Source of the DNA: an uncultured Flavobacteriaceae bacterium | Lineage (GTDB): Bacteria > Bacteroidota > Bacteroidia > Flavobacteriales > Flavobacteriaceae | Reading direction: 5' to 3' | Assembly: GCA_938010765.1 (NCBI GenBank) | Contig: CALLVX010000059.1 | Span: 1 to 53,467, forward strand | DNA: 53,467 nt | In this document: positions 17,829-53,251 of the stretch, one piece after another | Layout: each line of letters opens with the position of its first letter | How positions within the stretch are numbered: the stretch's first letter is position 1 | The notes under the pieces: generated by a model | Databases searched by the model: none | What the model was told of the DNA's origin: nothing | What the model saw: the letters and a program-made list of their open reading frames with translations, nothing else | Position numbers and translations under genes: made by a program

Positions 17829-17840
17829 ATCTCATAATAG

Positions 17841-17951
17841 GAGGAGGGATTTGACTGATTGCAACCTCAAAGTCTCAAAATTGTTTTGAGACCTGTCTTT
17901 CAAAGACAGATATCGATATAGTAATCGATATTTTAAAAATGCTAAAGCAGT
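17841..17951 (+). ncRNA. SAM-II-type riboswitch with long hairpin-bearing loop (metK leader)
   Basis: The conserved SAM-II core is visible. P1 is GAGG (17844-17847) with CCTC (17865-17868), enclosing GATTTGACTGATTGCA (17848-17863). The downstream strand TGCTAAAGCAGT (17940-17951) makes the pseudoknot: GCA 17861-17863 with TGC 17940-17942, and ACTG 17854-17857 with CAGT 17948-17951. Ordinary SAM-II has only a few bases between the two parts. Here the 71-base insert folds into three consecutive perfect hairpins (17872-17892, 17893-17909, 17910-17931). This resembles the long-loop SAM-II variant reported from Bacteroidota. Upstream of metK, SAM binding would reduce expression. A possible alternative pairing joins 17936-17947 and 17985-17995. 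Confidence 0.8.
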
Positions 17952-18026
17952 TGCTATTGATACAACAGTGTGTATTGATCCTCGCTTAGCACTTTCAGAT
18001 TCCTTTTGATAAAAATTTAAAAGACT

Positions 18027-19283
18027 ATGTCGTATTTATTTACCTCGGAATCAGTTAGCGAGGGGCACCCAGATAAGGTAGCCGACCAAATCAGTGATGC
18101 TTTGTTAGATAATTTTTTAGCATTCGACCCAGATAGTATGGTGGCTTGTGAAACCATGGTAACCACTGGGCAAGTTATTTTAGCAGGGGAAGTAAAAAGC
18201 GGTACCTATTTAGATGTACAGGGTATTGCCAGGGAGGTGGTGAATAAGATTGGTTATACCAAAGGGGAGTATCAGTTTAGTGGAGATTCTTGCGGAGTAA
18301 TCTCATTGATTCATGAACAATCGCAAGATATCAATCAAGGCGTAGATCGCGGTAAAAAGGAAGAACAGGGAGCAGGAGATCAGGGTATGATGTTCGGTTA
18401 TGCCACAAAGGAAACCAAGAACTATATGCCTTTAGCTCTTGATATTTCACATAAAATATTACAGGTATTAGCCGATTTGCGAAGAGCGGATAAGCAGATA
18501 AAATACTTAAGACCCGATGCAAAATCGCAAGTAACAATCGAGTATTCCGATGATAATATACCACAACGAATCGATACGATAGTGGTGTCTACACAGCATG
18601 ATGCGTTTGATAAAAACGATATGAAAATGCTGGCCAAGATAAAGAAAGACATCGTAGAAATCTTAATTCCAAAGGTCAAAAAACAGTTGCCTAAGAAAAT
18701 TCAGAATCTTTTCGATGATCAGATCAAATATCATATTAATCCTACTGGGAAATTTGTAATAGGAGGTCCGCATGGAGATACGGGATTAACAGGTCGAAAA
18801 ATCATCGTTGACACCTATGGAGGGAAAGGAGCTCACGGAGGTGGTGCTTTTAGCGGAAAGGACCCTAGCAAGGTAGATAGGAGTGCCGCATATGCATCTC
18901 GACATGTCGCTAAAAATTTGGTCGCGGCGGGAGTTTCAGATGAAATCTTGGTGCAGGTAAGTTATGCTATCGGCGTGGTTGAGCCTACTTCTATTTTCGT
19001 AGATACCTACGGTACTGCCAATGTTGATTTGAGTGACGGGGAAATTGCTCGGAAAGTAGAGAAACTTTTTGATATGCGCCCTTTTGCTATTGAAAAGCGG
19101 TTAAAACTCAGGAATCCGATTTATTTGGAAACCGCTGCTTACGGACACATGGGAAAAGAACCAAAATTGGTTAAAAAAGTATTCGAATCACCTTACAATG
19201 GTAGAATAGAAAAAGAGGTGGAACTCTTTACATGGGAAAAACTAGATATGGTCGAAAAGGTAAAAAAAGCCTTTAAATTATAA
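18027..19283 (+). CDS. metK: S-adenosylmethionine synthetase
   Basis: Makes S-adenosylmethionine from methionine and ATP. The 418-residue protein has the family signatures [12 protein letters not shown] (about residues 117-128) and the glycine-rich [18 protein letters not shown] (about 271-288). The N-terminal ATP-contacting [13 protein letters not shown] and the metal/potassium region are intact. It is somewhat longer than the 384-residue E. coli enzyme, as is usual in this phylum. It ends the metabolic route encoded by the rest of the block and is preceded by the SAM-II-like riboswitch, giving product feedback. A clear terminator follows. Confidence 0.97.
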
Positions 19284-19330: not shown

Positions 19331-19360
19331 CATCAGTAAAGTTCAAACACTTATTGAATA

Positions 19361-19498
19361 GTTATCAAGAAAGGTGGAGGGAATAGACCCTATGAAGCCT
19401 TAGCAACCCTTTGTATTCCCGATTGCTTATCGAGAACGAAGAAGGTGCTAAATTCTACCAAAATAACCATTTTTAATATGGAAATTAAGGCAGATAAC
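19361..19498 (+). ncRNA. SAM-I (S-box) riboswitch of the metY operon
   Basis: P1 pairs GTTATC (19361-19366) with GATAAC (19493-19498). The conserved S-box core is present: AAGAAAGGTGGAGGGA, then GACCCTATGAAGCC and TTAGCAACCCT, and later GAAGGTGCTAAATTCTACC. The 19284-19614 gap holds nothing else but the metK terminator, a promoter and this RNA. A short AT-rich hairpin (19505-19511 with 19516-19522) just after P1 ends in T-rich sequence and may be the expression platform, but it is weak. Confidence 0.95.
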
Positions 19499-19614
19499 AC
19501 ATACAAATTACATTTGTAATTTTCGTTTTCTTGTAACTTTTTGATTTTACCTACTCTAGATTGAGTTAGGTTTGGATTTTTTAATCTTATGTTCAATAAT
19601 TAAAAAACAAAATC

Positions 19615-20907
19615 ATGAGCGAACAAAAATTTTCAACAAACGCATTACACGCAGGTCACGATGTTACGGCGAATGGGGGTACTAGGGCAGTGCCGATTTA
19701 TCAAAGTACGGCCTATGTCTTTAAAAATGTTGATCACGCGGCCAATCTCTTTAACCTCTCGGAAGCGGGCTATATTTATACAAGATTAAATAACCCGACC
19801 AATGATGTACTTGAACAGCGCTTGGCAGCCCTTGAAGGCGGTATTGCTGCCGTTGCTACCGCGTCGGGTACCGCAGCCATTTCAACGGCACTTTTAGTAT
19901 TGCTGCGAACAGGGGATCATATTGTGGCATCTAGCAGTCTATATGGGGGTACCTATAATTTATTGGCGAATACCTTACCAAGGTTGGGCATTACCACCAC
20001 TTTTGTAGATCCTTCCGATCCTACAAATTTTGGCAAGGCCGTACAGGAGAACACGCGGGCCGTTTTCGTAGAATCGCTCGGAAACCCAAAGTTGGACGTG
20101 CTTGATCTAAAGGCAATTTCATCTGAAGCCAAGGCAGCTAAGATTCCTTTCATAGTTGATAATACCGTTGCCACCCCAGCCTTATTGAACCCGATCGAAC
20201 ATGGGGCAAATATCGTTATTCATTCGTTGACCAAATATATCAATGGCAACGGCACCTCATTAGGAGGGGTAATAATAGATGCCGGGACCTTCGACTACGG
20301 GAACGGTAAGTTTCCTGAGTTTACCGAACCTTCTCCAGGATATCACGGTTTAGTGTACCACGAAGCTTTAGGCCCCGCCGCATTTATCGCGAAGGTGCGA
20401 GTTGAAGGATTACGGGACTTCGGAGGGGCAGCAAGCCCCTTTAATTCTTGGCAAATTATACAGGGCTTGGAAACCCTGCCGATCAGAATGAAAAAACACA
20501 GCGAGAACGCCTTGGCACTTGCAGAATGGCTACAAACGAGGTCTGAGGTCGAATGGGTCAATTATCCTGGTCTAAAGACAAGTAAATACTATGCCCAAAC
20601 AGAAGCCTATTTGCCAAAAGGACAAAGTGGTATTGTTACCTTTGGAGTAAAGGGAGGGTTTGAATCTGCAAAGAAGATTGCCGATGAAACCAAGATATTT
20701 TCCTTGTTGGCAAACATCGGGGATACCAAGTCATTGATTATTCACCCGGCAAGTACCACGCATCAGCAATTGGGAGATGCCGAACAAGAAGCTACAGGAG
20801 TTACCAAAGACCTGATTCGCTTGTCGGTAGGTTTGGAAGACATTGAAGATTTAAAGACAGACCTCATCAACGCTTTCAATACGATCGACAAGTCTGTTTT
20901 AATATAA
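19615..20907 (+). CDS. metY: O-acetylhomoserine aminocarboxypropyltransferase (sulfhydrylase)
   Basis: PLP enzyme that makes homocysteine directly from O-acetylhomoserine and sulfide. The 430-residue length is typical of MetY and longer than the MetB/MetZ type. The PLP lysine is Lys207 in SLTKYINGNGTSLGG. Upstream are ASGTAAISTALL and the DNTVATPALLNPIEHGA loop. It is the first gene behind the SAM-I riboswitch and is followed by the MetX-ThrA fusion (96 bp) and metZ. The same operon thus makes the acylated homoserine and uses it, with sulfide coming from the cys genes downstream. Confidence 0.95.
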   Translation: MSEQKFSTNALHAGHDVTANGGTRAVPIYQSTAYVFKNVDHAANLFNLSEAGYIYTRLNNPTNDVLEQRLAALEGGIAAVATASGTAAISTALLVLLRTGDHIVASSSLYGGTYNLLANTLPRLGITTTFVDPSDPTNFGKAVQENTRAVFVESLGNPKLDVLDLKAISSEAKAAKIPFIVDNTVATPALLNPIEHGANIVIHSLTKYINGNGTSLGGVIIDAGTFDYGNGKFPEFTEPSPGYHGLVYHEALGPAAFIAKVRVEGLRDFGGAASPFNSWQIIQGLETLPIRMKKHSENALALAEWLQTRSEVEWVNYPGLKTSKYYAQTEAYLPKGQSGIVTFGVKGGFESAKKIADETKIFSLLANIGDTKSLIIHPASTTHQQLGDAEQEATGVTKDLIRLSVGLEDIEDLKTDLINAFNTIDKSVLI

Positions 20908-21003: not shown

Positions 21004-24000
21004 ATGCTACATCACTTAAATTTTCCTTCCTTTAGCACTATTGGCGGGGTATCACAAGAAATTGCACTTTCCTATCAATTGTTCGGGCAGGAGCTGCACT
21101 CGGCGCCCGTTGTTTTGGTCAACCATGCACTCACCGGAAATTCAAATGTTACCGGGGAAGATGGCTGGTGGTCTGCATTGATAGGGGAAGGTAAATGTAT
21201 AGATACGAATAGATATACCATACTTTCCTTTAATATTCCTGGGAATGGGCATGACAAATTTGTCATTGAAAATTACAAGGATTTCGTAGCCGGTGACATT
21301 GCCCATCTTTTTTTGCTGGCGCTCGAACGTCTTGAGATTCAAAAGCTATTTGCCATTATTGGAGGCTCTTTGGGTGGCGGTATTGCCTGGGAAATGGCTG
21401 CCCTGAACCCACAAATAACAGAGCATCTGATTCCCGTGGCCTCCGATTGGAAATCGACCGATTGGCTCATTGCCAATTGCCAGATTCAAGAACAGTTTTT
21501 GGTCAATTCAAAACAACCGGTACACGACGCACGCATGCATGCAATGCTATGTTATCGTACCCCCGAATCTTTTAAAGAGCGGTTCAAACGCAGTACAAAT
21601 GAGGAATTACAGGTGTTCAATGTAGAAAGTTGGCTATTACATCATGGCGAAAAATTACAGGAACGTTTTCAGTTATCGGCATACAAGTTGATGAATCAAC
21701 TGTTAAAGACCATTGATGTTGCCAGAGATGGCGACCAGAATTTCGAAGGCTTACAGAATAGCAATACCAATATTCATATTATAGGAGTCGACTCTGATCT
21801 GTTTTTTACCGCCAAGGAAAATAAGGACACTTTTAAACAGCTTGCTCAGGCGAATAGCAATGTTACCTATGGAGAAATTCATTCATTGCATGGGCATGAC
21901 GCATTTTTGCTCGAATTTGAACAAATGCAAAAATTGTTGTCGGACGTGTTCAACCAGAATGGCAAGAAGGATAAAAAAATAAAGGTGTTGAAGTTTGGCG
22001 GCAAATCGTTAAGCAATGGTGAAGGTCTGGGCAGAGTTTTAGATATTGTTGTCTCCAAGGTAAAGAGCGGGGAGAACATCGCAGTCGTATTATCAGCAAG
22101 AGAACAGGCCACTGATCAACTTGAGAAAATTTTATCGAAGGCAGTAGACGGCGAAGATTACAAAGAAGCCTTCGAAGCGTTTGAAAGCTATCAACAACAT
22201 ACTTTTTCAAATATTAATCTGGGAAAAGAGTTCAAAGCCTTGGCGCAACTTTTCGAAGGGGTGTCCTTATTGGGGGATTGTAGTGCAAAAATCAAGGATG
22301 AGGTTTTGGCCTATGGCGAATTGATTTCTGCCAAGCTCATTACAAAATTATTGATCGGGAAGGGTATCCAAGCCGAGTTGATCGACTCTAGAGAATTTAT
22401 AAAGACCGATGACAGCTATGGAGATGCCCAGCTGCTTGAAGAGGCTTCTAAAGAACTGGCCTTGCAACGGTTTTCATTATTGGGAAGCGATGTGGTGCCG
22501 ATAGTGACGGGTTTTATAGCTTCCACCGAACAAGGAGATACAACTACCTTGGGTCGTAATGGTAGTAACTATTCGGCAGCCTTGTTGGCCAACTTTCTAA
22601 ACGCAGGGGAATTACAGAACTATACCCATGTAGATGGTATTTATACGGCCAATCCTGATTTGGTGCATGAAGCAAGACGGCTCTCTAATTTATCTTATAC
22701 AGAAGCGAATGAGTTGGCTAGTTTCGGGACAACGATATTGCATGCAAAAACTATTATACCTTTAATTGAGAAGAACATTCCGCTTCGTATACTCAATACA
22801 TACAACGGGGACAATGAAGGAACCTTGATCAGTGCAAAATCGAGCAAAGAAGGGATTAAATCACTTTCGGTCATTGAAGATGTTTCGATGATCAATTTAG
22901 AGGGAAGGGGATTGTTAGGGAAAGTCGGCATTGATGCCCGTATTTTCAAAACCTTGGAAGCGCATAGTATCAGTGTGAGTATCATTTCACAAGGTTCTTC
23001 CGAAAGAGGAATTGGGTTGGTAGTACAAAGAAAAAGAGCGAAGAACGCCAAAAAAGCCCTAGAGAATGAATTTCGTAGTGATTTTAAGACCAATGATATT
23101 AATGCGATAAAAGTTATCGACGAGGTATCGGTTATTTCAATCATAGGCCAAGACTTGAGCACATTTCACAAGCCATACAATGCATTGATCAAAAATCAGA
23201 TAGTACCCTTACTTTTTAATAATACGGTATCTGGTAAGAACGTAAGTCTTGTAGTGAAGAAGACCGATTTGCATAAGGCCCTTAATGTGATGCACGGTCA
23301 AATTTTCGGAATTAGTAAGAAAGTAAATCTGGCCATTTTTGGCCATGGGAATGTGGGTGGAACATTGATCGATCAAATTCTTAAATCTGCGGTCACAATC
23401 GAAAAACGTAAGGGAATTGATTTGAACGTTTTTGCGGTTGCCAACTCCAAAAGGGTATTGTTAGAAAAAGATGGTATCAAAAAAGGATGGAAGACCGCAA
23501 TACAAACAAAAGGCCGCCCTTTTAGTGTCCCCGACATTTTTGCATTCGCGAAGAAGAATCATTTAGAGAACTTAATTGCAGTAGATAATACGGCTAGTAA
23601 TGACTTTGTGGCCAATTATTTTGAATTCGTAGAGCGGGGATTTGATTTGGTTTCCTCTAATAAAATAGCCAACACGCTCGGTTTTGATTATTACGAGCTA
23701 TTGCGAGAAGAATTGGCGAAAAATCAAAAACAATATTTGTATGAGACCAATGTTGGGGCAGGTTTACCGCTGATCGATACTATTAAATTATTACATCTAT
23801 CGGGCGAAAACATTACCCGAATTAAAGGTGTTTTCTCTGGGTCGTTAAGTTATATTTTCAATACTTTTTCCGAGGTCGATGCCCCTTTTTCGAGTATTTT
23901 AAAAGATGCGATGCAAAAAGGTTTTACAGAACCAGATTCCCGAGAAGACCTTTCGGGGAACGATGTTGGGAGAAAACTGTTGATTTTAGCACGGGAACTT

Positions 24001-24393
24001 GATTTGAGGAATGAGTTTTCTGATATCAACATCCAAAATCTTATTCCAGTGGCCTTGCAGAAAGAATCGGTAGATTTTTTTCTAAAAAACCTTGATTTAC
24101 TGGATGATACGTTTAATGAGATAAAGAAAAATCAGAAAACGGGCCATGTCTTGCGATATGTGGGAGATTTACATGGGAATCTACAAAAAGAGAAAGGACA
24201 ACTAGACGTGATCTTGGTATCGGTGCCCAAAGAAAGTGCTTTGGGGCAAGTAAAAGGATCCGATTCTATAATAGAGATCTATACCGAATCCTATGGGGAA
24301 AATCCGCTGGTGATTCAAGGGGCGGGTGCCGGAGCGGCCGTAACGGCTAGGGGTGTTTTTGGAGATATATTGCGAATAGCAGAGAAAGGGTAG
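21004..24393 (+). CDS. Trifunctional MetX-like acyltransferase / aspartokinase / homoserine dehydrogenase
   Basis: One 1129-residue protein covers three steps around homoserine. Residues 1-320 are an alpha/beta-hydrolase of the MetX type: the nucleophile Ser122 in GGSLGGG, with a probable acid Asp in VDSD (263-265) and His298 in HGHDAF. Residues 326-620 are aspartokinase, with KFGGKSL in place of the usual KFGGTS and LGRNGSNYSAALLA for the GRGGSD loop. About 630-770 is an ACT-type regulatory linker. From 773, homoserine dehydrogenase starts with the NAD(P) loop FGHGNVGG. No frameshift is seen, so the fusion is real here. AK-HSD fusions (ThrA) are common; an N-terminal MetX domain is much less so. 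It lies in the SAM-I-controlled operon between metY and metZ. Confidence 0.9.
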   Translation: MLHHLNFPSFSTIGGVSQEIALSYQLFGQELHSAPVVLVNHALTGNSNVTGEDGWWSALIGEGKCIDTNRYTILSFNIPGNGHDKFVIENYKDFVAGDIAHLFLLALERLEIQKLFAIIGGSLGGGIAWEMAALNPQITEHLIPVASDWKSTDWLIANCQIQEQFLVNSKQPVHDARMHAMLCYRTPESFKERFKRSTNEELQVFNVESWLLHHGEKLQERFQLSAYKLMNQLLKTIDVARDGDQNFEGLQNSNTNIHIIGVDSDLFFTAKENKDTFKQLAQANSNVTYGEIHSLHGHDAFLLEFEQMQKLLSDVFNQNGKKDKKIKVLKFGGKSLSNGEGLGRVLDIVVSKVKSGENIAVVLSAREQATDQLEKILSKAVDGEDYKEAFEAFESYQQHTFSNINLGKEFKALAQLFEGVSLLGDCSAKIKDEVLAYGELISAKLITKLLIGKGIQAELIDSREFIKTDDSYGDAQLLEEASKELALQRFSLLGSDVVPIVTGFIASTEQGDTTTLGRNGSNYSAALLANFLNAGELQNYTHVDGIYTANPDLVHEARRLSNLSYTEANELASFGTTILHAKTIIPLIEKNIPLRILNTYNGDNEGTLISAKSSKEGIKSLSVIEDVSMINLEGRGLLGKVGIDARIFKTLEAHSISVSIISQGSSERGIGLVVQRKRAKNAKKALENEFRSDFKTNDINAIKVIDEVSVISIIGQDLSTFHKPYNALIKNQIVPLLFNNTVSGKNVSLVVKKTDLHKALNVMHGQIFGISKKVNLAIFGHGNVGGTLIDQILKSAVTIEKRKGIDLNVFAVANSKRVLLEKDGIKKGWKTAIQTKGRPFSVPDIFAFAKKNHLENLIAVDNTASNDFVANYFEFVERGFDLVSSNKIANTLGFDYYELLREELAKNQKQYLYETNVGAGLPLIDTIKLLHLSGENITRIKGVFSGSLSYIFNTFSEVDAPFSSILKDAMQKGFTEPDSREDLSGNDVGRKLLILARELDLRNEFSDINIQNLIPVALQKESVDFFLKNLDLLDDTFNEIKKNQKTGHVLRYVGDLHGNLQKEKGQLDVILVSVPKESALGQVKGSDSIIEIYTESYGENPLVIQGAGAGAAVTARGVFGDILRIAEKG

Positions 24394-34331: not shown

Positions 34332-34359
34332 TACTTAGTTCATTACCAAACTGTAATTT

Positions 34360-34460
34360 GTTATCAAGAAAGGCGGAGGGAATAGACCCTATGAAGCCTT
34401 AGCAACCCTTTGCCAAAAGAAGGTGCTACGTTCTATTGCGCTCTAAGCGTGACAGATAAC
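34360..34460 (+). ncRNA. SAM-I (S-box) riboswitch of the metH operon
   Basis: The core is almost identical to the metY riboswitch over about 50 bases (AAAGGCGGAGGGAATAGACC, then CTATGAAGCCTTAGCAACCC). P1 pairs GTTATC (34360-34365) with GATAAC (34455-34460). It is followed by a hairpin AAAGAC-TACC-GTCTTT (34464-34479) with a pyrimidine run, and by a 10-bp inverted repeat (34528-34537 with 34555-34564) nearer the start codon, either of which may be the expression platform. The 34190-34578 gap holds only the terminator, promoter and this RNA. Confidence 0.95.
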
Positions 34461-34578
34461 TTAAAAGACTACCGTCTTTCCTTTTCCATTCTTGATATGT
34501 GTTAATATAATTTGATGTATAATCTTACATTTTGAAAAGTATTTTATTAATATATTTCAAAATGAATGCGATAAGACA

Positions 34579-35589
34579 ATGGCCAATATTCAAAAAATTC
34601 TGAAAGAAAGAATTCTAATATTAGATGGTGCAATGGGTACTATGTTGCAGCGCTATAAATTCGAAGAAGCCGATTTTAGAGGGGAACGCTTCAAAGAGTG
34701 GGAGCATCCGTTGCAGGGGAATAATGATTTATTATCCTTAACACAACCAGAAGCAATAGCTGAAGTGCATCGCAAGTATTGCGCCGCTGGTGCAGATATC
34801 TTGGAGACGAACACATTTTCTAGTACTACCATTGCGATGGCCGATTATTATATGGAGGAATTGGTCTACGATCTTAACTTTGAATCTGCGAGAATAGCAA
34901 AGAGCGTGGCGGATGAATTTACAGCAAAAGAGCCGCTTAAACCGCGCTTTGTCGCGGGCAGTATCGGGCCAACGAATAAAACGGCAAGTATGTCGCCCGA
35001 TGTAAATGATCCAGGGTTTCGAGCAATTTCTTTCGAAGAACTGCGAGTTGCCTATAAGCAGCAGGTAGAAGCCTTGCTAGATGGGGGAGCCGATATACTA
35101 TTGGTAGAAACTATTTTTGACACCTTGAATGCCAAAGCCGCCCTTTTTGCAATAGAGGAAGTAAAGGAAGAGCGTTCAATAGACGTGCCTATCATGGTCA
35201 GTGGAACAATTACCGATGCTTCGGGAAGAACATTATCGGGCCAAACAGCAGAGGCATTTTTAATCTCGATTTCCCACATTCCGGTCCTTTCGGTTGGGTT
35301 CAACTGCGCCTTGGGCGCCGATCAATTAGTGCCACATTTGGAAGTATTATCGAAAAGAACGGACTATGCCGTATCGGCACACCCAAATGCGGGCTTACCA
35401 AATGCTTTTGGGGAATACGATGAAACTCCGGAACAAATGGCAGAGCAAATAAAAGAATATGTAGAAAAAGGGTTAGTGAACATCGTGGGAGGATGCTGCG
35501 GCACGACTCCCGAACATATCACAGCCATTGCCCAGTTGGTTAAAGAGTACAAGCCGAGGACAATTAAAAAAATAAGTATATCGGTATGA
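34579..35589 (+). CDS. metH: Methionine synthase homocysteine-binding module (MetH N-terminal part)
   Basis: Zinc-dependent homocysteine methyltransferase domain of cobalamin-dependent methionine synthase as a separate 336-residue protein. The zinc ligands are Cys243 (GFNCALG) and Cys306-Cys307 ([10 protein letters not shown]). The N-terminus [11 protein letters not shown] is that of the family. In E. coli this is the first third of the single MetH chain; here the split is genuine, with stop at 35587-35589 and a coupled gene starting inside it. It is the first gene behind the second SAM-I riboswitch. Confidence 0.94.
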
Positions 35590-47891: not shown

Positions 47892-48785
47892 TTAACTGGT
47901 AAGTTGAGTGAACAAACTTTCTAAATTTTTGTTCTTGCGACTTAATTGCAAGGTTTTTAGTTGATTGTCATGAGCAAAATCAAATACAGCGGCCCGCATA
48001 TCTTTTGAGGTATTGAAGCCTATCTCGTAAACAAAGCCTGAGACGTTCCGTACACTGGTTACATGTAAAAGTTGTTTTAAAAAAGCCTCTTCGACCCGAA
48101 AATCGAATTCTACTTCTATTACCTGTTCCTGCTCCTCACGCAGATCTGACAGTTTCTTATCGGCTACCAGTACGCCATTGTTGATTATCAAAACACGATC
48201 ACATACGGCTTCGACTTCTTTCATGATATGTGTTGAAAGCAAAATGGTCTTTTCTTTTCCTATTTCGCGTATAAGTTTTCGTATTTCCAATAACTGGTTA
48301 GGGTCTAGGCCAGTGGTGGGTTCATCCAAAATCAATACATCCGGTTCGTGCAGCAAGGCCGCGGCCAAGCCCACACGTTGTCGGTACCCCTTAGAAAGTT
48401 GACCAATCTTTTTGTGTGCTTCAGCTGTCAAACCCGTTTGAGTTATTACTTCTCCGATCCGTGCTTTTGCTACCTTGTATACCTCGGCGTTGAAAGTCAG
48501 GTACTCCTTCACATACATGTCTAGGTACAAGGGGTTGTGCTCGGGTAAGTAACCAATACTTTGTTGAACTTCTTTTTTTTGCTTTAAGACGTCGAATGAA
48601 TTTACATGGGCTTCCCCTTCATCTGCCTCGTGATACGTAGTTAAAACCTTCATCATGGTAGATTTTCCTGCACCATTTGGTCCAAGAAAACCTACTACTT
48701 CACCACGGCCCAGTTCAAACGAAACATTGTCTAACGCCTTTTGACTTCCAAAAGCTTTTGTAATATTTTTTACCGTTATCGACAT
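47892..48785 (-). CDS. gldA: Gliding-motility ABC transporter ATP-binding protein GldA
   Basis: ATPase subunit of the GldAFG ABC transporter needed for gliding in several flavobacteria. The 297-residue protein matches GldA in length and start (MSITVKNITKAFGSQKALDNVSF). Walker A is GPNGAGKST, the signature is LSKGYRQRV, and Walker B is VLILDEP, followed by the His switch LLSTHIM. The frame opens at 48827 but relatives start at 48785. gldF and gldG are not adjacent here, as is usual for gldA in this family. TATTTTTG at 48802-48809 on the minus strand is a good -7 box. Confidence 0.92.
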   Translation of the reverse strand: MSITVKNITKAFGSQKALDNVSFELGRGEVVGFLGPNGAGKSTMMKVLTTYHEADEGEAHVNSFDVLKQKKEVQQSIGYLPEHNPLYLDMYVKEYLTFNAEVYKVAKARIGEVITQTGLTAEAHKKIGQLSKGYRQRVGLAAALLHEPDVLILDEPTTGLDPNQLLEIRKLIREIGKEKTILLSTHIMKEVEAVCDRVLIINNGVLVADKKLSDLREEQEQVIEVEFDFRVEEAFLKQLLHVTSVRNVSGFVYEIGFNTSKDMRAAVFDFAHDNQLKTLQLSRKNKNLESLFTQLTS

Positions 48786-48801
48786 CTCCATAGATTTTAG
48801 C

Positions 48802-48809
48802 CAAAAATA
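48802..48809 (-). promoter_or_regulatory. Putative gldA promoter -7 element
   Basis: On the minus strand this reads TATTTTTG, an exact TAnnTTTG match, 17 bp before the gldA ATG. Confidence 0.55.
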
Positions 48810-48848
48810 CATAATAAACCTAGACACCTTTATTAGGTATATGCGTAA

Positions 48849-48989
48849 ATACCCTCAATGCAATTTCTATTTTTCATATTCAACGGATATTTAGGTGGTT
48901 AAAAAATATTGGATTGGCTGATTCTAACTAGCTTTATAACCAATGGACATTTAGCTGACACAAAAAAAATGATTTTGCATTGGGGGTAT
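48849..48989. repeat. 141-bp segment bounded by 15-bp inverted repeats
   Basis: ATACCCTCAATGCAA (48849-48863) recurs inverted at 48975-48989 with one mismatch. Inside, GGATATTTAGGTGG and GGACATTTAGCTGA form a direct pair. There is no ORF. It fits either two distant regulator sites between gldA and the aromatic operon or a small non-autonomous element. Otherwise the 48786-49063 gap holds only the gldA promoter. Confidence 0.55.
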
Positions 48990-49063
48990 TCTACAGAAAA
49001 TTATACTATACTAGAAGCAAATCTCTCTAAACTCGAAAAAACTAAAAAAAATCCACTCTAGAA

Positions 49064-49093
49064 TTTGATTATTGATTTTAATTGTTACTTTAG
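49064..49093 (+). promoter_or_regulatory. Promoter of the aromatic operon leader
   Basis: TTTG (49064-49067) and TACTTTAG (49086-49093, one base off TAnnTTTG) are 18 bp apart, a normal Bacteroidota spacing. Transcription would begin about 49100, a dozen bases before the leader-peptide ATG. Confidence 0.65.
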
Positions 49094-49111
49094 CCAAAGT
49101 TTAAGTGTACA

Positions 49112-49183
49112 ATGATTAAGCAATATTTCTATAACGGTTTTTATTTTCACTTCTTTTTTAGAAGTGGAACGGGACTGTCATAG
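49112..49183 (+). CDS. Phe/Tyr-rich leader peptide of the aromatic operon (pheL-like)
   Basis: A 23-codon ORF with ATG at 49112 and TAG at 49181-49183. It has Tyr5-Phe6-Tyr7, Phe10-Tyr11-Phe12 and Phe14-Phe15-Phe16, so 9 of 23 codons are aromatic (6 Phe, 3 Tyr), with His13 among them. This is the composition of a sensing leader such as enterobacterial pheL. It lies directly between a promoter and an attenuator upstream of pheA. The three Phe codons in a row are inside a 6-bp hairpin (CACTTC 49148-49153 with GAAGTG 49161-49166). Its product is not expected to have a function of its own. Confidence 0.85.
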   Translation: MIKQYFYNGFYFHFFFRSGTGLS

Positions 49184-49234
49184 TATATTGAAAATTGATA
49201 TGATATAAAAGTCCCGCGAACAGCGGGACTTTTT
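49170..49234 (+). ncRNA. Transcription attenuator (antiterminator/terminator) before pheA
   Basis: The terminator stem is GTCCCGC (49211-49217) with GCGGGAC (49223-49229), loop GAACA, followed by TTTTTT-type sequence. The competing antiterminator is CGGGACT (49170-49176) with AGTCCCG (49210-49216), 7 bp perfect. The two share 49211-49216 and cannot coexist. The antiterminator's first arm lies in the last codons of the leader ORF, so a ribosome reaching the TAG would cover it and allow termination. A ribosome stalled at the Phe codons would leave it free and allow read-through. Confidence 0.85.
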
Positions 49235-49303
49235 TGTTTTAAATTTTTTTAAGCTTTCTTGATTTCGACAAGAGCAGGAATAGTTTCGATAACCAACGAC
49301 CGA

Positions 49304-50131
49304 ATGAGATTAAAAATAGCCATACAGGGAATAAAAGGATCGAACCATCATCAGGTGACTCGGGAGTACTTTGGCGATGATGTGCAGTTGGTAGAATGCA
49401 TGTCTTTTGATTATTTGGTAGAACGCTTACTCGATGCTACAGCCGACAAGGGAGTAATGGCCATCGAAAATTCTATCGCGGGATCCATTATTCCGAACTA
49501 TGCACTAATCTTCCATAATAACCTTCATATTATCGGAGAATACTATCTCAATATCAATCACAACCTTATGGCTTTAAAAGGGCAGGAAATTCGAGGTATT
49601 GAGGAAGTGCGATCACACCCAATGGCATTGTTACAGTGTAAGGAATTTTTTAAAGCATATCCGCATATAAAATTGGTAGAAGATGTAGATACGGCCGAAA
49701 CGGCCAAGCGTATTCAAGAACTACAACTGAAGAAGGTTGCGGCCATTGCACCAGAAGTGGCTGCCGATTTGTACGAGTTGAACATCGTAGCGCCGGGGAT
49801 ACAGACCATTAAGAATAATGCTACCCGCTTTATTATTGTTAAAACAAAAAATAAAGAATTGCCCGAGGCCGATATTAACAAGGCTTCTATTCGGTTCGTA
49901 ACCGACCATAAACGGGGTAGTTTGGCGGCTATACTGAATGTGATGAGCGATTGTCTTTTGAATTTAACAAAGATTCAATCCCTCCCAATTATCGAGACAC
50001 CTTGGAAATATGCCTTTTTTGTGGATGTTACTTTTGATAAATATGAGAATTTTAAAAAGGCAAAATCGCTTTTGAACATCATGGCAGAGGATTTTAAAAT
50101 ACTAGGGGAATATAAAAACGGAAGGTTATGA
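49304..50131 (+). CDS. pheA: Prephenate dehydratase
   Basis: Makes phenylpyruvate for phenylalanine. The 275-residue monofunctional enzyme starts at the ATG at 49304 (MRLKIAIQGIKGS). The frame extends to a TTG at 49259 that is not used by relatives. The catalytic Thr-Arg-Phe is T174-R-F176 (NATRF). The C-terminal ACT domain runs from about 195 (SIRFVTDHKRGSLAAIL). The Phe-binding ESRP motif of classical PheA is QSLP (Gln225-Pro228) and GALV is GSLA, so feedback inhibition may differ. It is first behind the attenuator and overlaps the next gene by ATGA. Confidence 0.94.
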   Translation: MRLKIAIQGIKGSNHHQVTREYFGDDVQLVECMSFDYLVERLLDATADKGVMAIENSIAGSIIPNYALIFHNNLHIIGEYYLNINHNLMALKGQEIRGIEEVRSHPMALLQCKEFFKAYPHIKLVEDVDTAETAKRIQELQLKKVAAIAPEVAADLYELNIVAPGIQTIKNNATRFIIVKTKNKELPEADINKASIRFVTDHKRGSLAAILNVMSDCLLNLTKIQSLPIIETPWKYAFFVDVTFDKYENFKKAKSLLNIMAEDFKILGEYKNGRL

Positions 50132-51273
50132 TACGTACCGCCGATCGCTTACATACGGTTGAAGAATATTACTTCTCAAAAAAGTTGAGAGAAGTTCGCG
50201 GCCTGATCGCAGAAGGAAGGCCCGTAATTAATATGGGTATTGGTAGTCCCGATTTGGTGCCGTCAAAAGAAATTGTGGAAAGTATTCAGCAAGCGGTTTC
50301 GGAACCAGGAGCGCACCAGTATCAAAGTTATCAAGGACTCCCCGCACTTAGGGAAGCAATAGCTACTTTTTATCAGAAGAAATTTGGCGTGGAGGCCAAC
50401 CCGGTCAATGAAATTCTGCCTTTGATGGGGTCAAAAGAAGGAATCATGCATATTAGTATGGCTTTCCTAAATCCTGGTGATGAAGTACTGATTCCAAACC
50501 CTGGTTACCCCACGTATACATCGGTAACCAAGTTGGTAGGTGCAACTCCCAAGTATTATAATCTTCGAGATGACAATGGTTGGTTTCCGGATTTAGAAGC
50601 CTTGCAGGAATTAGATCTAAAGAAGGTGAAACTAATGTGGGTCAGTTACCCCCATATGCCAACTGGAGCGATAGCGACCAAGACGCAATTTGAAGCTTTG
50701 ATCACTTTCGCAAAGAAGAACGATATTCTATTGGTCAATGATAACCCCTATAGTTTTGTCTTGAACACAACCCCATTGAGTATGTTGGCAGTTGAAGGTG
50801 CCAAAGAGGTGGTACTTGAGTTAAATTCGTTGAGCAAGACCTTTAATATGGCAGGTTGGCGCGTAGGAATGGTCTTGGGAAGTGTAGCGCACATCAACGC
50901 GATTTTAAAAGTAAAAAGCAACATGGATTCTGGTATGTTCTATGGGATTCAGAAAGGAGCCATTGCGGCTTTAAAAAGCCCTCAAAGTTGGTTCGATGAA
51001 TTGAATAGAACCTATCATTCCAGGAGGAAATTGATTTTTGAATTGGCAGATAGGCTTCAATGTGTCTACGATACGAATGCGGTAGGAATGTTCGTATGGG
51101 CCAAACTACCTTCAGAAATTGAATCGGCAGAACAGTTCATCGATAAGGTGTTATATGACAAGAATATTTTTATTACTCCCGGGACTATCTTCGGCAGTAA
51201 CGGGGAAGGATATATTCGCTTTTCGCTTTGTGTAACGGAGGAAAAAATACAAGAAGCAATCAATAGATTTTAA
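50128..51273 (+). CDS. Class I/II aminotransferase (aromatic)
   Basis: PLP aminotransferase of 381 residues with the PLP lysine Lys237 in NSLSKTFNMAGWRVG, the NPGYPTYTSV loop and the NDNPYSFV Asp-Tyr region. The place between pheA and tyrA, with a four-base overlap with pheA, makes transamination of phenylpyruvate and 4-hydroxyphenylpyruvate (or of prephenate) the likely job. From sequence alone an aspartate or alanine type cannot be excluded. Confidence 0.88.
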   Translation: MIRTADRLHTVEEYYFSKKLREVRGLIAEGRPVINMGIGSPDLVPSKEIVESIQQAVSEPGAHQYQSYQGLPALREAIATFYQKKFGVEANPVNEILPLMGSKEGIMHISMAFLNPGDEVLIPNPGYPTYTSVTKLVGATPKYYNLRDDNGWFPDLEALQELDLKKVKLMWVSYPHMPTGAIATKTQFEALITFAKKNDILLVNDNPYSFVLNTTPLSMLAVEGAKEVVLELNSLSKTFNMAGWRVGMVLGSVAHINAILKVKSNMDSGMFYGIQKGAIAALKSPQSWFDELNRTYHSRRKLIFELADRLQCVYDTNAVGMFVWAKLPSEIESAEQFIDKVLYDKNIFITPGTIFGSNGEGYIRFSLCVTEEKIQEAINRF

Positions 51274-51299: not shown

Positions 51300-52148
51300 A
51301 TGAACGTTTTTATTATCGGTATCGGTCTTATAGGGGGGTCTTTTGGGAAGGACATCAAACGCTTGCGCCCTCAAACCAAAATTTATGGTATTGATATTAA
51401 TGAAGACCATTTGGAAAAGGCCTTAGAATTAAATATCATCGATGAAAAATCGAACTATGAAGGGCTAGGTATGGCCGATATGGTGATTGTTGGAGTTCCT
51501 GTAGATATTATGTTAAGCGAGCTGCCGAAAGTTCTCGATTTGATAAATGATGATTGTGTTGTATTCGATGGGGGTTCTACCAAAAGTCTTATTTGCAAGG
51601 CGTTGGAAAATCACCCTAAGAGACGTAATTACCTTTCATGTCACCCCATAGCAGGAACGGAATTTTCGGGCCCAAGTGCCGCAATCGAACTACTATATGA
51701 AGGCAAAACCAATATTATTTGTGAAGTAGAAAAAACGACTTTTAAATTGCAAGAGCAAGCATTAAAATTATTTACTGAAATTGGTATGCGTATTCGTTAT
51801 ATGGATCCGGTTTCACATGATAAACATATTGCCTACGTATCGCATTTATCGCATATTAGTTCGTTTATGCTCGGTAAAACTGTCATAGAAAAAGAAAAAA
51901 ACGAAAAAGATAGTTTTGATATGGCAGGTAGTGGCTTTGCTTCTACCGTGAGATTAGCTAAAAGCTCACCAGCCATGTGGACCCCCATTTTCAAGCAAAA
52001 CAAAGAAAATGTGATTGAAACGTTAGAAGAATACATTACCAATCTTCAACATTTCAAAGAATTAATGAAACAAGACGATTTTACTGAAATTTACAACGAG
52101 ATGGAAAGTACAAATCATATAAAACAAATATTAAACGGCATAAAATAA
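51300..52148 (+). CDS. tyrA: Prephenate dehydrogenase
   Basis: Oxidatively decarboxylates prephenate to 4-hydroxyphenylpyruvate for tyrosine. The 282-residue enzyme has the NAD loop GIGLIGGSFGKDI at the N-terminus, the catalytic SCHPIAGTEFSGP region and DPVSHDKHIAYVSHLSH (His of the dehydrogenase). There is no ACT domain. The first half uses mixed Leu codons like its neighbours, while the last third turns AT-rich and TTA-dominated, as in the next gene, so a recombination boundary may lie inside it (about 51.7 kb). Confidence 0.94.
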   Translation: MNVFIIGIGLIGGSFGKDIKRLRPQTKIYGIDINEDHLEKALELNIIDEKSNYEGLGMADMVIVGVPVDIMLSELPKVLDLINDDCVVFDGGSTKSLICKALENHPKRRNYLSCHPIAGTEFSGPSAAIELLYEGKTNIICEVEKTTFKLQEQALKLFTEIGMRIRYMDPVSHDKHIAYVSHLSHISSFMLGKTVIEKEKNEKDSFDMAGSGFASTVRLAKSSPAMWTPIFKQNKENVIETLEEYITNLQHFKELMKQDDFTEIYNEMESTNHIKQILNGIK

Positions 52149-52168: not shown

Positions 52169-53251
52169 ATGAAGAATACAAAAGAATTAAGAACATGGTT
52201 GGATGATATGAAGCTCGATCATCCACTAGTAATAGCAGGGCCTTGTAGTGCAGAAACCGAAGAGCAGGTTTTAAAAATTGCACACGAACTAAAAGATTCT
52301 GATGTAAGCTATTATCGTGCTGGTATATGGAAACCAAGAACTAGACCTGGAAACTTTGAAGGGGTTGGTGCCTTAGGTTTAAAGTGGTTACAAAAAGTAA
52401 AAGAAGAAACAGGAATGAAAACCTGTACGGAAGTAGCAAATACGGCTCACGTAAAGTTAGCTTTAGAACATGACATTGATATGTTATGGATTGGTGCTCG
52501 TACTGCCGTTTCTCCTTTTATTATGCAAGAATTGGCCGATGCTTTGCAAGGTACTGATAAACCTGTATTAGTAAAAAACCCTATCAATCCAGATTTGGCT
52601 TTATGGTTAGGTGGTATTGAAAGATTATATACGGCTGATATTAAAAATTTAGGTGCCATTCATAGAGGTTTTTCTACTTATGAAAAAACAAAATATAGAA
52701 ACGTACCAGAATGGCAATTGGCTATTGAGTTTAAAAACAGATTTCCAGATTTACCTTTAATCAATGATCCATCTCATATTACCGGTAAACGTGATATGGT
52801 TTTTGATGTATCTCAAACAGCTTTAGATTTAAACTTTGACGGATTAATGATCGAAACACACTTTGATCCAGATAACGCTTGGAGTGATGCCGCACAACAA
52901 GTAACACCAGATGCTTTAAAGCAAATGATGAAAGATTTAAAAATCAAGAAAGTAACCAACGAAGAGGATGCTTATAAAGATGCTTTAAATAACTTACGTG
53001 CTCAAATTAATGTTGCTGACAACCAGTTAATTGATGTAATGGGTAAACGAATGAAAGTTGCCGATCAAATTGGTGCTTTAAAGAAAGAAAAGAATGTTGC
53101 CGTATTACAAAACAAACGTTGGAACGAGGTTTTAGGTAACATGATTTTAGAAGGCGAAAAAGTAGGTTTAAGTGAAGAATTTGTTTTAAAAATGTTTAAA
53201 GCAATTCACCAAGAATCTATCAATCATCAAGAAAAAGTGATTAACGGATAA
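52169..53251 (+). CDS. Bifunctional DAHP synthase / chorismate mutase
   Basis: First enzyme of the shikimate route fused to chorismate mutase, 360 residues. Residues 1-265 are the type I-beta (KDO8P-like) DAHP synthase: HPLVIAGPCSAET, YYRAGIWKPRTRPGNFEG, GARTAVSPF, LVKNPINPDLALW, NDPSHITG. The C-terminal 85 residues are an AroQ chorismate mutase (LRAQINVADNQLIDVMGKRMKVADQIGALKKE). This architecture is common in Bacteroidota. Together with pheA and tyrA the operon goes from E4P/PEP entry and chorismate to Phe and Tyr. Leu codons are overwhelmingly TTA, unlike the genes before it. Confidence 0.94.
   Translation: MKNTKELRTWLDDMKLDHPLVIAGPCSAETEEQVLKIAHELKDSDVSYYRAGIWKPRTRPGNFEGVGALGLKWLQKVKEETGMKTCTEVANTAHVKLALEHDIDMLWIGARTAVSPFIMQELADALQGTDKPVLVKNPINPDLALWLGGIERLYTADIKNLGAIHRGFSTYEKTKYRNVPEWQLAIEFKNRFPDLPLINDPSHITGKRDMVFDVSQTALDLNFDGLMIETHFDPDNAWSDAAQQVTPDALKQMMKDLKIKKVTNEEDAYKDALNNLRAQINVADNQLIDVMGKRMKVADQIGALKKEKNVAVLQNKRWNEVLGNMILEGEKVGLSEEFVLKMFKAIHQESINHQEKVING

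Follow-up and report, generated by a model that had tools for sequence, protein, structure and literature searches.

The window, a 53,467-nucleotide stretch of DNA from an uncultured Flavobacteriaceae bacterium, carries near its end a run of four genes:

49304-50131, plus strand: pheA, prephenate dehydratase (PF00800, E 2.6e-56)
50128-51273, plus strand: class I/II aminotransferase (PF00155)
51300-52148, plus strand: tyrA, prephenate dehydrogenase (NF006307 above cut-off; PF02153, PF20463)
52169-53251, plus strand: DAHP synthase fused to chorismate mutase (PF00793, PF01817)

NCBIfam prephenate dehydratase models match pheA below their cut-offs, and the best NCBIfam match of the aminotransferase is an LL-diaminopimelate aminotransferase model, also below cut-off. 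Judged from the operon in which it lies, this aminotransferase probably has aromatic specificity. The ORF before the pheA leader region (47892-48827, ABC-transporter ATPase-like by eye) is on the minus strand. Because that gene is divergent, the terminator described here belongs to the 5′ UTR of the pheA operon and not to the upstream gene. The leader region contains the following features:

49064-49067, plus strand: −33-like TTTG element of a predicted promoter, read in the sequence
49086-49093, plus strand: −7 box TACTTTAG, differing at one position from the TAnnTTTG box of flavobacteria
49112-49183, plus strand: leader peptide ORF, MIKQYFYNGFYFHFFFRSGTGLS and a stop codon, read in the sequence and like the leaders before pheA genes of the same family
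49148-49166, plus strand: possible upstream (perhaps pause) hairpin, 49148-49154 with 49160-49166, from complementarity in the window sequence
49170-49176, plus strand: antiterminator arm 1, CGGGACT, in the last ORF codons, from an alignment of 68 sequences
49180-49206, plus strand: inner hairpin extending the antiterminator, from the predicted fold of 49157-49219
49207-49233, plus strand: intrinsic terminator, 11 bp with loop GAACA and a T-rich tract to about 49240
49210-49216, plus strand: antiterminator arm 2, AGTCCCG, part of the terminator 5′ arm, from covariation

A sequence-only reading of this DNA had described a 23-codon leader with six Phe and three Tyr codons and a Phe run at codons 14-16, and recomputation bears this out; the Tyr codons are 5, 7 and 11, and the peptide has no Trp. 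With nine of 23 codons specifying Phe or Tyr, the ORF has the enrichment in codons for the operon's products that an attenuator calls for. Its composition alone is not decisive: among 589 short-ORF starts in the window, four ATG ORFs of 12-40 amino acids, the leader included, have at least six and at least 35% aromatic residues. Conservation is what decides.

The element TTTG or TTG marks the −33 region of Bacteroidota promoters. Ahead of the leader, TTTG is followed after an 18-nt spacer by TACTTTAG, in keeping with the promoter that had been read there, which remains a prediction. In 139 of 183 leaders the motif TAnnTT[AT]G occurs at most 45 nt ahead of the ATG, against eight of 183 shuffled ones, and the commonest gap from box to ATG is 18 nt. 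Parts of a Flavobacterium psychrophilum study place the sigma-A box at −12 to −5 (PMC9723704), so that transcription is predicted to start near 49098 and to leave a 5′ UTR of about 14 nt. No Shine-Dalgarno sequence is visible by eye in this UTR. According to the same parts of that study, translation initiation in Bacteroidota uses features other than Shine-Dalgarno pairing (PMC9723704).

The gene pheA was present in 10/10 genomes of the genus, 268/299 sampled genomes of the family, 56/119 of the order sample and 53/198 of the class sample. The comparison drew on 234 upstream loci, reduced to 220 by the removal of three on cut contigs (L120, L236, L196) and then of 11 duplicates, and to 219 by the removal of a locus that was the window again (L214); L215-L217, repeats of genomes already included, were retained. 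The family loci first read (27 + 60) came from the better pheA matches and are a non-random sample, and from the named collection the best 80 of 585 confirmed pheA loci were used. A strict detector, which called for an ORF of 14-40 amino acids with at least seven and at least 28% aromatic residues and a terminator with at least four GC pairs, found the element in 157 of 220 pheA upstream regions, in none of 1100 dinucleotide shuffles and on one of 220 antisense strands. A relaxed detector (ATG starts only, at least six and at least 25% aromatic residues, a terminator with at least three GC pairs within 60 nt) found it at 194/219 loci, as against 1/1095 shuffles and 3/219 antisense strands. Many Flavobacterium loci, with weaker terminators, were missed by the strict detector and recovered by the relaxed one. 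By sample, relaxed counts (strict in brackets) were 10/10 (10) for the genus, 87/87 (81) for the family, 71/71 distinct loci (43) for the named collection, 13/24 (11) for the order and 13/27 (11) for the class.

The leader ORF, whose presence ahead of pheA in other Flavobacteriaceae had been put forward as a check, is indeed kept there. With the relaxed detector, leader and terminator accompany all 97 pheA genes that the better matches supplied for genus and family. They also accompany 25 of the 27 usable loci in a set of the most divergent family pheA genes, chosen against sampling bias (30 were taken; L350, L355 and L356, which lacked the 5′ end or had it at the edge of a contig, were dropped). 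At the other two of these 27 loci, L327 and L353, both in the window's family, leader and terminator were not found; the same holds, with the relaxed detector, for 11/24 order-level and 14/27 class-level loci. In family f15, three of four examined loci lacking a detector match have a related MNRLENTFNSFYFIYDR leader. Five loci of family f16 in the order (L129-L133, genomes of about 600 kb) retain pheA, and leader and terminator were not found at them, L132 having an aromatic-rich ORF with no terminator; loss of the leader would be in line with genome reduction in symbionts. With 150 candidates scored per genome, a covariance model built on the element gave one match each at E ≤ 0.001 in 15 of 21 genomes, most of which had themselves supplied rows of the model, and none in six. 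The match in the window genome is 49112-49240; weaker matches lie directly before pheA in G307 and G306 and before a pheA motif in G011 and G012.

Aromatic residues dominate the peptides across clades. In 184 distinct leaders, identical ones having been taken out beforehand, Phe makes up 26% of residues, Tyr 14% and Trp 2.5%, where base composition would predict 7, 7 and 0.9%, and Trp is present in 105 of the 184. The earlier statement that the operon makes exactly the amino acids sensed is in this light slightly narrow, with a DAHP synthase/chorismate mutase also encoded and Trp in so many leaders. Sixty-seven distinct 23-codon leaders, picked by an aromatic pattern that itself fixed the aromatic positions and Asn, Ser or Thr at codon 8, have the consensus M-T-K-Q-Y-F-W-N-G-F-Y-F-Y-F-F-F-K-R-G-T-G-L-L. 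The window leader lies outside the 67, since its His13 fails the filter, and forms row 1 of the 68-sequence alignment A2. In the 67 leaders, Phe codons 6, 10 and 12 alternate between TTT and TTC with Phe retained; codon 14 is TTC in every one, which suggests a possible constraint at the RNA level on the last codons.

Some other residues are also retained in these window-type leaders: Gly9 in 49/67, Gln4 in 35/67, and Asn8 in 63/67, where the filter demanded Asn, Ser or Thr. Such residues would be expected if the peptide acted by its sequence beyond aromatic supply, through nascent-chain arrest or in trans like peTrpL, a precedent described in parts of PMC7298713. We consider this improbable, since leaders of other clades, such as MTVHYTYFNNWFYFFFSKRNEALYV, MLQNVWQGFYFYFYFFSKRRDFVSYC and MNTFFTYFNFWFFYFGKKVRVVL, are aromatic-rich but lack those residues, the C-terminal part tracks the RNA arm in differing frames, and the terminator/antiterminator pair explains where the parts lie. 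Arm 1 takes the forms GGGACT, GAGACT, GAGGCTT, AGGATT and AGAGCGGTC across clades. Where GGGACT occurs close to the end of the ORF, 68 of 69 leaders share a single frame for it; AGGATT uses another frame in 20/20 leaders, and this variation by clade argues that the arm is selected as RNA and not as peptide.

The two exclusive stems on which ribosome-mediated attenuation would depend can be followed in the alignment. Arm 1 pairs with arm 2 at seven of seven positions, so that the perfect 7-bp antiterminator previously proposed, with its first arm in the last codons, is confirmed on recomputation. The terminator, as an attenuator requires, lies between the leader ORF and pheA; its stem joins 49207-49217 to 49223-49233 by 11 pairs around a 5-nt loop and is followed by the T-rich tract. 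That it overlaps the antiterminator had been recognised, while the stem assigned to it at the time (49211-49217 with 49223-49229) was too short. In A2, 94.7% of antiterminator cells are paired, as against at most 58.8% in a slid control. Both sides change in four of its seven pairs, a figure matched by 7/500 shuffles, and in seven double-change cells, matched by 0/500, in each case with shuffles that ignore kinship. For the terminator, both-side changes occur in 7/11 pairs and 35 cells, and no shuffle, kinship again being ignored, reaches as high. Among 87 family leaders, from which kinship was not removed, arms pair with their own partner at 17.52 compared with 14.95 when permuted (sd 0.28; maximum of 2000, 16.01). 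Compensatory changes of the kind that the sequence-only reading had named as a check are therefore found in both stems, and the antiterminator shares an arm with the terminator that it excludes. A constitutive partial terminator in a plain 5′ UTR, merely lowering pheA expression, would also bring a strong terminator to this place, yet it would not entail a covarying exclusive antiterminator with conserved, ORF-linked spacing, and we give it almost no credence.

The segment 49157-49219, which holds the antiterminator, has a predicted fold of −15.8 kcal/mol (z −3.05), and the fold z-score of 49155-49240 is −3.6. The RNAalifold structure contains the terminator, with a 4-bp fragment in the pause-hairpin region, and leaves out the antiterminator, an omission expected for exclusive stems. 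For a pause or protector hairpin, two registers in A2 (columns 37-42/53-58 and 37-43/49-55) have 88.7% and 72.3% of cells paired; their covariation is not clearly above shuffles, being matched by 82 and 50 of 500, and is confounded by coding constraint. The stretch 49170-49177 takes in arm 1 and the base directly after it, the third position of codon 22; this base is a G in 62 of 67 window-type leaders, although the antiterminator leaves it unpaired. Taken together with the possible hairpin, some 10 nt farther upstream, it resembles a his/trp-type RNA polymerase pause site.

The spacing of the parts links the ORF to the stems. Arm 1 follows the last aromatic codon of the cluster at a distance of 9.5 ± 1.9 nt (n=194), a geometry partly conditioned by the arm 1 search, which starts at that codon. 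Relative to the ORF end, arm 1 varies with an sd of 6.5 (n=194), and in some leaders it straddles or follows the stop. A near-fixed gap from codon to arm with a drifting stop is expected if a stalled ribosome must just free arm 1. With the E. coli footprint length and an assumed toeprint of +16, a ribosome covers up to 12 nt beyond the first base of its A-site codon. On that assumption the edge of the stalled ribosome stops short of arm 1 by 0 or 1 nt in 112 of 184 leaders, and by 0 nt in the window.

A folding model was applied to the RNA made before the terminator 3′ arm. With the ribosome stalled, the mean modelled antiterminator probability is 0.885 (above 0.5 in 178/184 leaders); with the ribosome at the stop, a state in which arm 1 is mostly masked by construction, it is 0.014 (2/184); with no ribosome it is 0.645 (123/184). 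The corresponding values for the window are 0.99, 0 and 0.96. Geometry, within its partly conditioned search, and folding model agree with the earlier proposal that a ribosome at the stop would hide arm 1 and one stalled on Phe codons would leave it free. Any ligand that hid arm 1 could throw the same switch, whether a protein or a metabolite bound to the antiterminator in the manner of TRAP or a riboswitch, with the short ORF incidental. This is very unlikely, for the aromatic ORF is conserved, its spacing to arm 1 is near-fixed while the stop drifts, and the leader has no Rfam family at gathering score: a search of 48800-49700 gave 15 matches up to E 5, none at gathering score, riboswitches and T-boxes included.

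The element is thus very probably, as far as sequence comparison can tell, a genuine leader-peptide attenuator, kept in nearly all family members examined, and comparison across relatives gives its mechanism good support. We hold it highly probable that, by way of the translating ribosome, it attenuates transcription of the pheA-aminotransferase-tyrA-DAHP synthase/chorismate mutase operon. Transcription would start at about 49098 and a ribosome would begin the leader at 49112. When Phe-tRNA and Tyr-tRNA are ample, the ribosome would reach the stop codon at 49181-49183, cover about 49163-49193 and hide arm 1; the 11-bp terminator at 49207-49233 would then form and the transcript would end at about 49235-49240. 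When Phe-tRNA (or Tyr-tRNA) is scarce, the ribosome would stall when an aromatic codon occupies its A site. A stall at the last Phe codon (49157-49159) would put its leading edge at about 49169, one base short of arm 1, leaving this arm to pair with 49210-49216, block the terminator and let RNA polymerase enter pheA. Since the complete terminator stem is longer than the antiterminator (11 versus 7 bp), antitermination would have to be kinetic. The parts, their conservation, covariation and spacing come from computation, and stalling, premature termination and its relief are what these lead us to infer for cells. Sensing of Tyr through codons 5, 7 and 11 is likely, though secondary, and in relatives Trp may add to the sensing. 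Transcription-translation coupling in Bacteroidota is assumed; if the model is true, that coupling would be close.

The E. coli pheA and trp leaders share with this element an ORF with an amino-acid run, an overlapping antiterminator and terminator, and the kind of operon controlled. Their Rfam families were considered and not reached: at 34.1 bits RF01859 (Phe_leader) falls short of its gathering score of 55, and at 25.2 bits RF00513 (Trp_leader) falls short of its 41. In E. coli, arm 1 follows the stop, and an untranslated trp leader does not read through. In the flavobacterial leader, by contrast, arm 1 for the most part sits within the tail of the ORF, the 1:2 pause/protector hairpin is without covariation support, the 5′ UTR of about 14 nt has no visible Shine-Dalgarno sequence, and codons for Phe, Tyr and often Trp occur together. 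The modelled no-ribosome probabilities (mean 0.645, window 0.96) and the lack of covariation in a protector suggest, as a prediction, that an untranslated leader reads through; a leader of this default-on kind would read through where otherwise it would terminate. A distinct Bacteroidota design, with ribosome loading about 14 nt from the start and independent of Shine-Dalgarno pairing, no protector hairpin, a default-on state and joint sensing of Phe, Tyr and often Trp, is a tentative proposal that may well fail. If true, a single leader would respond to the supply of Phe and Tyr, with Trp added in over half of the relatives, and would govern an operon containing DAHP synthase, an enzyme of the common pathway.

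A report on flavobacterial 5′ elements in ISME Commun. 2021 is reportedly the work of Guerin et al. In the parts considered here it counts 64 5′ regions with structure in F. psychrophilum and presents strong clues that leader peptides attenuate amino-acid operons of that species; pheA and hisG each have a structured 5′ element that also occurs in other Flavobacteriaceae genera and has no Rfam hit (PMC9723704, ISME Commun. 2021). Its pheA element agrees with the one in the window in gene, family, suggested attenuation and lack of an Rfam hit, so far as those parts go. The two are probably the same, and the observation is not wholly new. The same main-text parts hold no sequence, arms, covariation or mechanism for the pheA element. 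The earlier remark that no characterised Phe/Tyr case was known in Bacteroidota is to be qualified by this prior account of the element (PMC9723704).

Leader-peptide attenuation is known mainly from Proteobacteria and Actinobacteria, according to parts of PMC2965389 (2010), whose main text does not contain the words ‘Bacteroidetes’ or ‘bacteroid’. Other ribosome-mediated attenuators outside Proteobacteria, those of Actinobacteria (parts of PMC1262725) and of hisS/hisZ in Firmicutes (parts of PMC2965389), belong to other phyla and other genes. Sections of PMC4833913 and PMC7366714 deal with Bacteroidetes leader genes or sORFs, and the pheA element was not found in those sections. Surveys cited in part of PMC4833913, Lyubetsky 2007 and Lopatovskaya 2010, may hold earlier predictions in Bacteroidetes.

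The pheA leader may have counterparts in its own genome. Candidate leaders with terminators precede hisG (His-rich MTNNNVHHHFYHCAQAR; L254, G000:C193), a trpE-like gene that is below its family cut-off and cut by a contig end (Trp-rich MNNLNINTWWWYNSRKKS; L323, G000:C150:14502-14611), and ilvD (Ile/Val-rich MKRILLIVILSIVVP; L324, G000:C74:4546-4653). In relatives, a His-rich ORF occurs at 11/18 hisG loci and a Trp-rich ORF, in one case doubtful, at 5/17 trpE loci; ORFs rich in Ile, Leu or Val are so frequent that a count of them would mean little. The His, Trp and Ile/Val leaders are possibly a set of attenuators in the window genome. A conserved and complete case, with these leaders beside it, would offer a concrete model of amino-acid control in Bacteroidota, and annotation of the leader peptide would be possible in most pheA-bearing genomes of the Flavobacteriaceae.

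Elsewhere in the window, riboswitches precede three other ORFs, whose likely identities were read by eye. A SAM-II riboswitch (17835-17955, plus strand; 47.9 bits against a gathering score of 44) lies before a metK-like ORF (18027-19283). Two SAM-I riboswitches, both plus-strand matches at the Rfam gathering score, lie at 19359-19500, before an O-acetylhomoserine sulfhydrylase-like ORF (19615-20907), and at 34358-34462, before an ORF like the N-terminal part of metH (34579-35589). An 1129-amino-acid ORF (21004-24393, plus strand) resembles, again by eye, a fusion of homoserine O-acetyltransferase with aspartokinase-homoserine dehydrogenase.
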